Of a stretch of DNA of 64,000 nucleotides, positions 42,678 through 45,547 are shown piece by piece (position 1 is the stretch's first letter; each line of letters begins with the position of its first letter). The translations under genes and the position numbers were made by a program. The notes below the pieces were generated by a model. It saw nothing but the letters and a program-made list of their open reading frames with translations. It searched no databases and was not told the DNA's origin. The stretch comes from Variovorax brevis (GTDB lineage: Bacteria; Pseudomonadota; Gammaproteobacteria; Burkholderiales; Burkholderiaceae_C): positions 186,001 through 250,000 of the forward strand of contig NZ_JASZYG010000006.1 of the NCBI RefSeq assembly GCF_030317105.1, written 5' to 3'.

Positions 42678-43796
42678 TCAGCCTCGGCGTGCCCTGACGG
42701 CGCGCGACAGGGTATCGAGCATCTGCACCGAATCATCCCAGCCGATGCACGCGTCGGTGATGCTCTTGCCGTACTCCAGGTCCGCGACCTTGTTCTTGCC
42801 CGGCGTGAACTTCTGTGCGCCGGCGACCAGGTGGCTTTCGACCATGACGCCGAACACGCTCTTCGACCCTGCGGCGATCTGGCTGGCGATGTCCGTCGCC
42901 ACTTCCATCTGCTTCTGGTGCTGCTTCGAACTGTTGGCGTGGCTGCAATCCACCATCAGCGTGGGCGGCAGCTTCGCCGCCGTGAGGTCCGCGCAGGCCT
43001 GCGCCACGCTGGTCGCATCGTAGTTGGGCGCCTTGCCGCCGCGCAGGATGACGTGGCAATCGGAGTTGCCGTTGGTCTGCACGATCGCCACTTGGCCGTT
43101 CTTGTGCACCGACAGGAAATGGTGCCCGCGCGCCGCCGCCTGGATCGCATCGGTGGCGATGCGGATGTTGCCGTCGGTGCCGTTCTTGAAGCCTATCGGC
43201 GCGGAAAGACCGGACGCCAGTTCGCGGTGCACCTGGCTCTCGGTCGTGCGCGCACCGATGGCGCCCCACGCGATCAGGTCGCCGATGTATTGCGGGGAAA
43301 TCACGTCGAGGAACTCGCTGCCGGCCGGCAGGCCGATGCGGTTGATGTCGATGAGCAGCTGGCGCGCCATGCGCAGGCCTTCGTCGATGCGATAGCTCTC
43401 GTCGAGGTACGGGTCGTTGATGAGGCCCTTCCAGCCCACCGTCGTGCGCGGCTTCTCGAAATAGACGCGCATCACGATTTCCAGCGTGTCGGCGTACTTG
43501 TCGCGCTCGACCTTCAGGCGGCGGGCGTAGTCCAGCGCCGCAGCCGGGTCGTGGATCGAGCACGGGCCCATGACCACGAGCAGGCGATCGTCCTTGCCCG
43601 TCATGATCTTGTGGATCGATTTGCGCGTGTGGGTGATGAGCGACTCCACCGGCGTCCCGCGGATCGGGAAGAAGCGGATCAGATGTTCCGGAGGGGGCAG
43701 CACGTTGATGTCCTTGATGCGTTCGTCGTCGGTCTTGCTGGTCTTTTCGACTTGCGCATACCAGGCGTCGCTGGCGGAGGCGGTGTTGTGGCTCAT
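42678..43796 (-). CDS. aroG: 3-deoxy-7-phosphoheptulonate (DAHP) synthase, class I
   Basis: This enzyme condenses phosphoenolpyruvate and erythrose 4-phosphate, the first step of aromatic amino-acid synthesis. The 372-residue product is of the AroF/AroG/AroH type: VVMGPCSIHD, RVYFEKPRTTVGWKGLINDP, GFKNGTDGN and VDCSHANSSKQHQ, which holds the metal-binding residues. AAGGA lies eight bases before ATG 43796. The leader upstream encodes a Phe/Tyr/Trp-rich peptide and a terminator, so attenuation by charged aromatic tRNA is the likely control. aroE lies at 50.5 kb on the other strand. Confidence 0.97.
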   Translation of the reverse strand: MSHNTASASDAWYAQVEKTSKTDDERIKDINVLPPPEHLIRFFPIRGTPVESLITHTRKSIHKIMTGKDDRLLVVMGPCSIHDPAAALDYARRLKVERDKYADTLEIVMRVYFEKPRTTVGWKGLINDPYLDESYRIDEGLRMARQLLIDINRIGLPAGSEFLDVISPQYIGDLIAWGAIGARTTESQVHRELASGLSAPIGFKNGTDGNIRIATDAIQAAARGHHFLSVHKNGQVAIVQTNGNSDCHVILRGGKAPNYDATSVAQACADLTAAKLPPTLMVDCSHANSSKQHQKQMEVATDIASQIAAGSKSVFGVMVESHLVAGAQKFTPGKNKVADLEYGKSITDACIGWDDSVQMLDTLSRAVRARRG

Positions 43797-43842
43797 CGGA
43801 TCGTTCCTTCTTCGGTGTCGTCTTGCTTGAAATGAATGGGGC

Positions 43843-43878
43843 AAAAAAAAACCGCCGGGGCTTTTGGCACCGGCGGTT
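43843..43878 (-). terminator. Attenuator of aroG
   Basis: On the minus strand AACCGCCGG pairs with CCGGCGGTT (9-bp stem, 11-base loop), followed by a run of nine T. It stands between the leader peptide stop and the aroG ribosome site. The 5' arm CCGCCGG (43870-43876) can instead pair with CCGGCGG inside the leader (43924-43930), forming an antiterminator. Confidence 0.9.
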
Positions 43879-43904
43879 TTGGGAGGTTCTTTTGTCTGCT
43901 TGCT

Positions 43905-43979
43905 TTACGCGCGCGCCTCTCGTCCGCCGGATACCGGGAACCAAAAGTACGAAAAGAAAAAGGCACGAAGGGCTGACAT
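43905..43979 (-). CDS. Aromatic-residue leader peptide of aroG
   Basis: A 24-codon frame starts MSALRAFFFSYFWFP and ends before TAA 43905-43907. Seven of residues 7-14 are Phe, Tyr or Trp (five Phe, one Tyr, one Trp). The arrangement is like pheL and other attenuation leaders: uncharged tRNA would stall the ribosome on these codons, leaving the downstream CCGGCGG free for the antiterminator. The ribosome site is poor and the promoter was not found with confidence; TTGCGA (44014-44019) is a weak -35 candidate. Confidence 0.85.
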   Translation of the reverse strand: MSALRAFFFSYFWFPVSGGREARA

Positions 43980-44086
43980 GAGCCGCGAATGTAGCACGGG
44001 CTTCGGCTTGAGATCGCAAATGCTTGTAACGCCCGACGGCAAACCACGGCAATCTGCCGTGCCCGCCCCGACCGCGCGCAAGGCGC

Positions 44087-45547
44087 TCAAGCCGTGCCGC
44101 CGACGGTCAGGCCGTCGATGCGCAGCGTCGGCTGGCCCACACCCACGGGAACGCTCTGGCCTTCCTTTCCGCAGGTGCCGACACCGCTGTCGAGCGCCAT
44201 GTCATCGCCGATCATGGTCACGCGCTTCAACGCATCGGGACCGTTGCCCACGATGGTCGCGCCCTTGACCGGGTACTGGATCTTGCCGTTTTCCACCCAG
44301 TAGGCCTCGCTCGCAGAGAACACGAACTTGCCGCTGGTGATGTCGACCTGACCGCCGCCGAAGTTGGTGGCGTACAGGCCCTTCTTGATGCTGGCAACTA
44401 TTTCCTTGGGGTCCTTGTCGCCGCCGAGCATGTAAGTGTTGGTCATGCGCGGCATCGGCACGTGGGCATAGCTTTCGCGGCGGCCGTTGCCGGTTGGCTT
44501 GACCTTCATCAGGCGCGCGTTGAGCGAATCCTGGATGTAGCCCTTGAGAATGCCGTCCTCGATGAGCACGTTGCGCTGGCTGGCGTGGCCTTCGTCGTCG
44601 ACGTTGAGCGAGCCGCGGCGGTCGGCGATCGTGCCATCGTCGAGCACCGTGACGCCCTTGGCCGCCACGCGCTGGCCGATGCGGCCGGAAAACGCACTCG
44701 ATCCCTTGCGGTTGAAATCGCCTTCCAAGCCGTGGCCCACCGCTTCGTGCAGCAGGATGCCGGGCCAGCCCGGGCCGAGCACGACCGTCATTTCGCCGGC
44801 AGGGGCGGGACGCGATTCGAGATTGACCAATGCAGCATTCACGGCTTGGTCGACATAGCTCGCGATGTGCTCGTCGTCGAAGTAAGCGAGGCCGAAGCGC
44901 CCACCGCCACCGCCCGATCCCACTTCGCGGCGGCCGTTCTGCTCGGCGATCACCGTGACCGACAAGCGCACCAGCGGCCGCACATCGGCGGCCAGCGTGC
45001 CGTCGGCGCGGGCCACGAGCACCACGTCGTATTCGCTGGCCAGGCCGGCCATGACCTGCGCCACGCGCGGGTCGCGCGAGCGGGCGAGCTTTTCGACTTT
45101 TTCGAGCAGCTTGACCTTGGCAGTGCTGTCCAGCGTCGAAATGGGGTCGATGCCACCGTAAAGCGAGCGGCTCGACGCGATCTTGCGCGTTGCCATCTTG
45201 GCCTTGCCATTGCGGCCCGCCGACGAAATGGAGCGAACGGTGCGCGCCGCGTCCAGCAAGGAGGCTTCCGAGATGTCGTCGGAATAGGCAAAGGCCGTCT
45301 TTTCGCCGCTCACCGCGCGGACACCCACGCCTTGGTCGATGCTGAAGCTGCCCGTCTTGACGATGCCCTCTTCCAGGCTCCAGCCTTCGCTGCGCGTGTA
45401 CTGGAAGTAAAGGTCGGCATCGTCGACCTTGTGCGCGGTGATTTCCGCGAGCGCCTTGGACAGGTGCGACTCGTCGAGTCCGAAGGGCGTGAGCAGGAGT
45501 TGCTGCGCCGTGGCCAGGCGCTCGATGGTGGGTTCGCGAGAGATCAT
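44087..45547 (-). CDS. tldD: Metalloprotease TldD
   Basis: TldD, with TldE/PmbA, degrades unfolded peptides and matures microcin-like peptides in the cytoplasm. The 486-residue product has the zinc motif HEAVGH (about 267-272) in WPGILLHEAVGHGLEGDF and the C-terminal GTCGKEGQ cysteine region. The tldE partner is not in the window. It follows rodA by 33 bases and precedes the aroG leader on the same strand. Confidence 0.96.
   Translation of the reverse strand: MISREPTIERLATAQQLLLTPFGLDESHLSKALAEITAHKVDDADLYFQYTRSEGWSLEEGIVKTGSFSIDQGVGVRAVSGEKTAFAYSDDISEASLLDAARTVRSISSAGRNGKAKMATRKIASSRSLYGGIDPISTLDSTAKVKLLEKVEKLARSRDPRVAQVMAGLASEYDVVLVARADGTLAADVRPLVRLSVTVIAEQNGRREVGSGGGGGRFGLAYFDDEHIASYVDQAVNAALVNLESRPAPAGEMTVVLGPGWPGILLHEAVGHGLEGDFNRKGSSAFSGRIGQRVAAKGVTVLDDGTIADRRGSLNVDDEGHASQRNVLIEDGILKGYIQDSLNARLMKVKPTGNGRRESYAHVPMPRMTNTYMLGGDKDPKEIVASIKKGLYATNFGGGQVDITSGKFVFSASEAYWVENGKIQYPVKGATIVGNGPDALKRVTMIGDDMALDSGVGTCGKEGQSVPVGVGQPTLRIDGLTVGGTA

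Follow-up and report, generated by a model that had tools for sequence, protein, structure and literature searches.

A predicted ribosome-mediated attenuator with mixed aromatic codons in front of a DAHP synthase gene of Variovorax brevis and its relatives

The minus strand of the window (the whole 64,000-nucleotide stretch of Variovorax brevis DNA analysed here) carries a short ORF rich in aromatic codons, followed by an intrinsic terminator and then by a DAHP synthase gene, and we regard it as very likely that the ORF and terminator together act as a ribosome-mediated transcription attenuator of that gene. The parts of the element are present and conserved, their link to the gene is kept, and the two strands of the proposed antiterminator (regions 2 and 3) pair in a coordinated manner across species. 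It appears to regulate the entry step of aromatic amino acid synthesis; almost all genomes of the window's family have it, and its occurrence in the order is patchy.

The locus is read on the minus strand throughout. The upstream gene, an ORF at 44087..45547 that we take to be tldD-like, lies outside the switch; a relative of it is found in the fetched flank of 64 of 80 loci. A predicted extended -10 promoter element, TGCTACATT (43988..43996), whose motif is kept across leaders, is separated by eight bases from the ATG of the leader ORF (43905..43979; ATG at 43979, stop codon TAA at 43907-43905). This ORF of 24 codons, MSALRAFFFSYFWFPVSGGREARA, has a conserved aromatic core, includes five Phe codons, one Tyr and one Trp, and is predicted to be leaderless. 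Region 1 (TACTTTTGGTTCCCGG, 43934..43949) spans the codons Tyr11-Phe12-Trp13-Phe14-Pro15 and can pair in folds with region 2 (CCGGCGGACGAGAGG, 43916..43930), the predicted 5' strand of the antiterminator, which includes CCGGCGG at 43930-43924. Region 3 (CCTCCCAAAACCGCCGG, 43870..43886) is the partner of region 2 by alignment, pairing test and folds, and its CCGCCGG part doubles as the 5' arm of the terminator (regions 3:4, 43843..43880, from sequence and fold). The terminator consists of AAAACCGCCGG and TGCCAAAAGCC, with CCGCCGG at 43876-43870, then CCGGCGG as the 3' arm (43858-43852) and nine T (43851-43843). The ATG of the presumed regulated gene, a DAHP synthase of the AroFGH type (42678..43796), is at 43796, 46 bases past the T-run. 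A preliminary description of this locus had placed the ORF, arms, terminator and gene at these same coordinates, and the complementarity that it saw between 43930-43924 and 43876-43870 is correct.

Taken by itself the window gives little indication of such an element. The single-sequence fold of its leader is unremarkable (z -1.37), and a generic scan listed just a shorter hairpin overlapping the terminator, the sole terminator-like site in 43500-44400, so that the evidence for the leader rests on comparison with related genomes. A known riboswitch or T-box was set aside, as the attenuator and riboswitch families of Rfam 15 (T-box, amino acid leaders and others) gave no match at gathering score anywhere in the window.

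The downstream protein scores 536.9 bits against the aroFGH model TIGR00034 (cut-off 173.2) and 553.2 against the narrower AroG model NF006723, under its cut-off of 568. The nearest named relatives of the gene are from Variovorax (L004 and L005, 88-89% identity), and its best match is a proteobacterium MAG (L003, 91%). The source genome has a second DAHP synthase (L002, G000:C12:905820-906866) that is 56% identical, and no aromatic-rich leader was found upstream of it; the switch is thus carried by one of the two copies in the genome. Searches with the leader pattern and with the covariance models each gave one match in the source genome, with no repeat elsewhere. We note also a small ORF, MFIHHVTQTGQGRGAWPWRTPSSLTV, upstream of trpE in the same genome (L243, G000:C16), which is located about 11 nt past a TATAAA and with its two Trp codons is a weak candidate for a Trp leader.

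For comparison, 111 loci were assembled: 80 from protein matches, 29 from genomes of the family, and the genome's own two copies. An automatic rule, requiring an upstream ORF with at least five aromatic residues in nine codons, was passed by 103 of them; two more, L063 and L066, were included manually, and for L070 the wrongly picked ORF was exchanged manually. Leaders are missing from the paralog L002, from L076, L079 and L082 (Polynucleobacter) and from L077 (Cupriavidus), the last four having DAHP synthase genes close to those of the family yet no leader, and L027 was left out because its contig ends at the gene. A terminator is present between leader ORF and gene in 104 of the 105 leaders; L037, with none between the leader and its extrapolated gene start, was dropped, and removal of ten near-identical sequences left 94 for alignment A1. 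The covariance model built from A1 (R1) has six base pairs and is in effect a sequence profile. It matches 288 of 298 genomes of the family (260 of the 266 of good quality), which, R1 having been trained on the family and its kin, is a measure of prevalence rather than an independent discovery. Among the ten genomes with no R1 match, G055, G161, G205 and G242 also gave no DAHP synthase match, and G202 and G276 lack the R1 match despite a good match to DAHP synthase.

A more scattered distribution is seen in the order. R1 matches 75 of 300 order genomes, and a DAHP synthase gene is downstream in 72 of the 76 loci fetched from these matches, the other four (L183, L185, L186 and L188) matching only the 3' part of R1. 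The automatic ORF rule was passed by 69 of the 72, including L163, probably with a wrong ORF, and L172, L184 and L187 have fewer than five aromatic residues by this rule. A second model, R2, was built from 84 leaders, 20 taken from the 111 loci and 64 from order loci (three of these from the window's family). Of 299 order genomes, 76 have a full-length R2 match scoring over 40 bits (nine of these genomes belong to the window's family) and the remaining 223 have none; four weaker full-length matches, at 31-34 bits, all fall in one family. The order sample was drawn evenly from groups, and these counts are not natural frequencies. Across the wider class, 2 of 271 genomes outside the window's family match R2 in full, both of family f63, whose enzymes group in the tree with some of family f4.

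Of 130 order genomes searched at the protein level, 99 have a DAHP synthase, and 28 of these 99 have a full-length R2 match above 40 bits. In 40 of the other 71 we inspected the region upstream of the best copy, taking one or two genomes for most families. None of these 40 DAHP synthase genes, some of which encode distant enzymes (down to 35% identity), is preceded by an aromatic-rich leader, the highest content being four aromatic residues in nine codons; three of the control genomes (G311, G319 and G342) have short partial R2 matches elsewhere. The element therefore seems to be patchy in the order and, where it was not found, to be truly missing and not just diverged. In a quick tree of 118 DAHP synthases, 73 of which have a leader, the leader label requires 11 changes, compared with a mean of 36 for shuffled labels; a good many of the forks in this tree are open, and its root is disturbed by one long branch.

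Several enzymes depart from this grouping. Those at L245, L253, L261, L269, L274, L278 and L284 have no leader but stand among leader-bearing ones, and their genomes (G299, G315, G329, G350, G373, G397 and G361) are of 1.7-2.2 Mb, as if genome reduction had cost them the switch; among the enzymes that lack a leader, L260 (5.6 Mb) and L281 (3.7 Mb) do not fit this pattern of small genomes. A Solimonas contig (L040, 2317-3619) carries a DAHP synthase 80% identical to that of the window, together with the leader and with no tldD-like gene in the flank, and in the two f63 loci (L189 and L190) leader and gene group with family f4. Transfer of the gene together with its switch is the probable explanation of all three.

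These distributions also bear on a simpler reading, in which the hairpin does no more than end transcription of the upstream tldD-like gene, the ORF in front of it having arisen by chance. No other terminator is in view for the upstream gene, since the sole site of this type listed in 43500-44400 overlaps the hairpin. However, the leader model matches 288 of the 298 family genomes, the leader is kept where the fetched flank has no tldD-like gene (for example L038, L040 and L052, some other such loci being short contigs), and a conserved -10 element lies between the upstream gene and the hairpin. Given this conservation, the tldD-less loci and the 40 control genes, the combination of chance ORF and upstream-gene terminator was rejected as hardly credible, and we return to the attenuator.

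The motif TGNTANNNT is present in 92 of the 94 leaders with its last T 6-9 nt ahead of the ATG, and a gap of 6-10 nt is seen in 0.43% of shuffled upstream sequences; the two exceptions (L055 and L095) have the motif, with an earlier ATG 10 or 8 nt after it. The generic scan of this region of the window listed no sigma-70 promoter and found no -35 box. From the usual spacing between a -10 box and the first transcribed base, transcription would be expected to start at about 43979-43982, at the ATG or 1-3 nt ahead of it. A start inside or downstream of the leader, which the preliminary description had named as evidence against an attenuator, is not indicated, the -10 box predicting a start at the ATG or just ahead of it. 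With the start at or just before the ATG the leader ORF would be leaderless rather than absent, and a Shine-Dalgarno-like motif precedes just 1 of the 94 leader ORFs as compared with 69 of the 94 DAHP synthase genes. This near-absence, together with the spacing of the -10 box, suggests that the leader ORF is probably leaderless in the window's family; in other families a -10 motif at the same distance is present at some loci and missing from others. Leaderless mRNAs do occur in the beta-proteobacteria, as excerpts of three reports indicate: in Cupriavidus metallidurans they account for 4.67% of the primary starts (PMC7563307), in Burkholderia cenocepacia transcription of 72 genes begins exactly at the start codon (PMC4603805), and in Neisseria gonorrhoeae only three are named in the portion available (PMC4176332).

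The 104 leaders of the window's family and its near kin all contain Phe, with Tyr in 102, Trp in 98 and all three in 97, and the three residues together make up 31% of leader residues. Judging by these codons alone, Phe, Tyr and Trp may all count as inputs. The composition differs in other families, for which 60 leaders were counted (the 72 order loci less L163, L184, L187 and nine loci of the window's family): Phe is present in 60, Tyr in 55, Trp in 25 and all three in 24. A version of the attenuator that senses Phe, or Phe and Tyr, with the lone Trp codon being incidental or kept for RNA pairing, is accordingly a serious competitor, although we hold it to be somewhat less probable than not. 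The window itself has five Phe codons to one Tyr and one Trp, 35 of the 60 other-family leaders have no Trp and 5 no Tyr, and the codons that flank Trp are nearly fixed, as if for RNA reasons, with TTT before it in 90 of 98 leaders and TTC after it in 78 of 98 (four long window genes use TTT 18 and TTC 52 times); within region 1, TTTTGGTTC is kept at the nucleotide level across aligned leaders. The aroR leader of Corynebacterium glutamicum likewise answers to Phe and not to Tyr, according to an extract of one report (PMC11802643). Against this, in the family and near kin Trp is kept in 98 and Tyr in 102 of the 104 leaders, and the Trp codon sits where a stalled ribosome would just free region 2, its first base being 15-18 nt from GGCGG in 79 of the 89 leaders with Trp ahead of the arm.

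Four order leaders (L156, L166, L168 and L172) have Phe but neither Tyr nor Trp, as in MSKPAASFFFFGFFLPLAEGIDRRC of L156, and provide a natural Phe-only version for comparison. In L056, L066 and L070 (the last from Aquabacterium commune) His takes some of the aromatic positions, as in RYHFWHFHIQHL of L066; their region 2 reads GGCGC, and the stretch after it differs from that of other leaders but still pairs, as in the fold of L056. The leaders form a natural series of Phe plus Tyr plus Trp, Phe plus Tyr, and in a few cases Phe only, and so lend themselves to direct study of leaderless initiation and of amino acid specificity.

The core of region 2, GGCGG, is present in 86 of the 94 leaders and as close variants in the other eight. 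Counting the variants, this arm is in frame 0 in 81 leaders and in frame 2 in 13, and is therefore conserved as RNA and not as peptide; the leader stop codon starts 6 to 31 nt past the start of GGCGG. This arrangement is relevant to another explanation, in which the nascent peptide, in the manner of TnaC, arrests the ribosome from within the exit tunnel in response to a free amino acid, so that codon starvation plays no part. The strong conservation of the aromatic core sequence would fit such a peptide, but the residues ahead of Tyr-Phe-Trp-Phe vary among F, Y, A, S and G, and the two frames and variable stop distance leave no fixed arrest site near the peptide end. We consider arrest of this type improbable, and favour codon-dependent stalling at an RNA switch.

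The predicted antiterminator extends beyond the seven bases of CCGGCGG:CCGCCGG, with a GAGAGG-like stretch after GGCGG pairing with bases upstream of CCGCC, and this stretch and its partner differ together in some species. Duplex energies were compared in all 94 leaders for true and exchanged partners, with fixed anchors and with segments that do not overlap, namely what remains of region 2 and the stretch ahead of CCGCC. The mean is -10.38 kcal/mol for true partners and -8.90 for all mismatched ones; partners drawn from the ten most similar leaders give -9.35 (sd 0.26), and none of 5000 draws reaches the true mean. True partners lose their advantage among leaders with a similarity above 0.3, and, taken one by one, only 40 of the 94 leaders beat 95% of their dinucleotide shuffles. 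A first version of the test, with misplaced anchors in some rows, gave a like result in which a shifted control was also positive, and the difference was smaller when short segments were used. RNAalifold gave no consensus structure for a MAFFT alignment of regions 2-3 and only six terminator pairs on A1, perhaps because the spacing varies.

A hairpin between regions 1 and 2 is seen in a sample of folds, in which region 2 can pair with the aromatic codons. The 1:2 pairing has no covariation: 4169 of 10000 permutations do equally well, and the true partners are outdone by partners taken from similar leaders. Folding under constraint serves to illustrate the attenuation model and does not amount to proof of it: when region 1 is masked and region 4 is still to be transcribed, the best fold is the antiterminator in 94 of 94 leaders; with the bases masked to 10 nt past the stop codon, the terminator forms in 94 of 94; and of the 94 naked leaders, 50 pair region 2 with region 1 and 33 pair it with region 3. 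Sequence, pairing test and folding agree with an antiterminator that overlaps the leader ORF and excludes the terminator.

The likely mechanism is that RNA polymerase starts at or beside the leader ATG, as the -10 box suggests, and that for this reason the ribosome would load on the bare 5' end with no Shine-Dalgarno sequence. A shortage of charged Phe-, Tyr- or Trp-tRNA would stall the ribosome at the aromatic codons, most usefully at Tyr11-Phe12-Trp13-Phe14, which overlap region 1. Region 2 (CCGGCGG...GAGAGG) would then be left free to pair with region 3 (CCTC...CCGCCGG), and this 2:3 pairing would block the terminator and allow the DAHP synthase gene to be transcribed. With the usual ribosome footprint, the 15-18 nt between the Trp codon and GGCGG mean that a ribosome waiting at Trp13 would just free region 2, and that one paused at Tyr11 or Phe12 would in addition occupy region 1; this predicted geometry is that of classical attenuation. 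Where aromatic amino acids are plentiful the ribosome would reach the stop codon and cover part of region 2, regions 3 and 4 would pair, and transcription would presumably end at the T-run. If the leader were untranslated, region 2 could fold back on region 1 and termination would again be favoured. The preliminary description had proposed an attenuator of this type, and that reading gains support from the conservation of leader, arms, terminator and gene link; alignment for the aromatic codons and both arms, which it had suggested as a check, was carried out here and yielded matches in 288 of 298 genomes, 94 aligned leaders and the coordinated 2:3 pairing. Its proposal that a ribosome at the stop codon covers the arm is approximate: by the footprint usually assumed, such a ribosome would cover the GAGAGG half of region 2 and only part of CCGGCGG.

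Speculatively, and with rather more doubt than confidence, the single leaderless ORF could be viewed as a three-input gate, in which too little charged tRNA for Phe, for Tyr or for Trp would by itself open the way into the shikimate pathway. In this view, loading on a bare 5' end would couple the switch to the state of 70S initiation, and the terminated leader RNA or the peptide might act elsewhere as those of trpL do in Sinorhizobium. In E. coli this entry step is served by three separately regulated DAHP synthases. Alternatively, the leader RNA, once terminated, might act mainly in trans as a small RNA, with its cis effect secondary. A precedent is Sinorhizobium meliloti rnTrpL, an attenuator RNA that starts at the leader ATG and acts in trans in the portion of the report available (PMC7298713), but attenuation in cis accounts for the conserved features and we think a primarily trans role quite unlikely here. 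The leaders may also serve engineers of aromatic products.

The element is thus of a known kind, a ribosome-mediated attenuator as predicted, and is marked out by its mixed aromatic codons, its probable leaderless ORF and its pathway-entry target. The pheL-pheA and trpL-trpEDCBA systems of E. coli act on terminal branches, and each has one amino acid as its signal and a leader ORF led by a Shine-Dalgarno sequence; the Variovorax leader, unlike these, precedes a pathway-entry enzyme, mixes Phe, Tyr and Trp codons and has no Shine-Dalgarno sequence. It resembles them, as they are described in excerpts of PMC5343134 and PMC11802643, in having a leader peptide, alternative terminator and antiterminator, and cognate codons beside the pairing region. 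Among the matches listed in the open-licence literature we found no description of the element in beta-proteobacteria; subscription papers could hold one. The closest published case found, likened here by its reported codons alone, is the aroR-aroF attenuator of Corynebacterium glutamicum, reportedly described by Neshat et al. in 2014. Both have a leader peptide with Phe and Tyr codons (Phe-Tyr-Phe in aroR) ahead of a DAHP synthase gene, and, in the parts of the sources at hand, stalling on aroR enhances transcription under Phe limitation (PMC11802643, PMC7356990). The actinobacterial system differs in that only Phe-Tyr-Phe is reported for it, and Tyr availability is without effect in the section available (PMC11802643).

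Putative attenuators are also given for aroA(I-alpha)-tyrA operons of Vibrio and for other tyrA operons (Table 7 of PMC1173090, in the portion available). The Vibrio cases share with Variovorax a predicted attenuation of an operon that starts, by gene name, with DAHP synthase, but they are computed and tied to tyrA, and the rows available include no stand-alone beta-proteobacterial DAHP synthase gene. For the gyrA-serC-pheA-tyrA supraoperon of Bordetella parapertussis the same table gives a computed attenuator, which may be a further case among aromatic genes of the beta-proteobacteria. The TyrR and TrpR regulons are described for gammaproteobacteria lineages in the part of PMC5343134 at hand. 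The leaderless trpL of S. meliloti (rnTrpL/peTrpL) differs from the Variovorax leader in controlling trpE(G) and in having a reported 5' end where that of Variovorax is predicted, but, as far as the available portion of PMC7298713 describes it, the two are alike in an RNA that begins, or in Variovorax would begin, at the ATG of the leader ORF.
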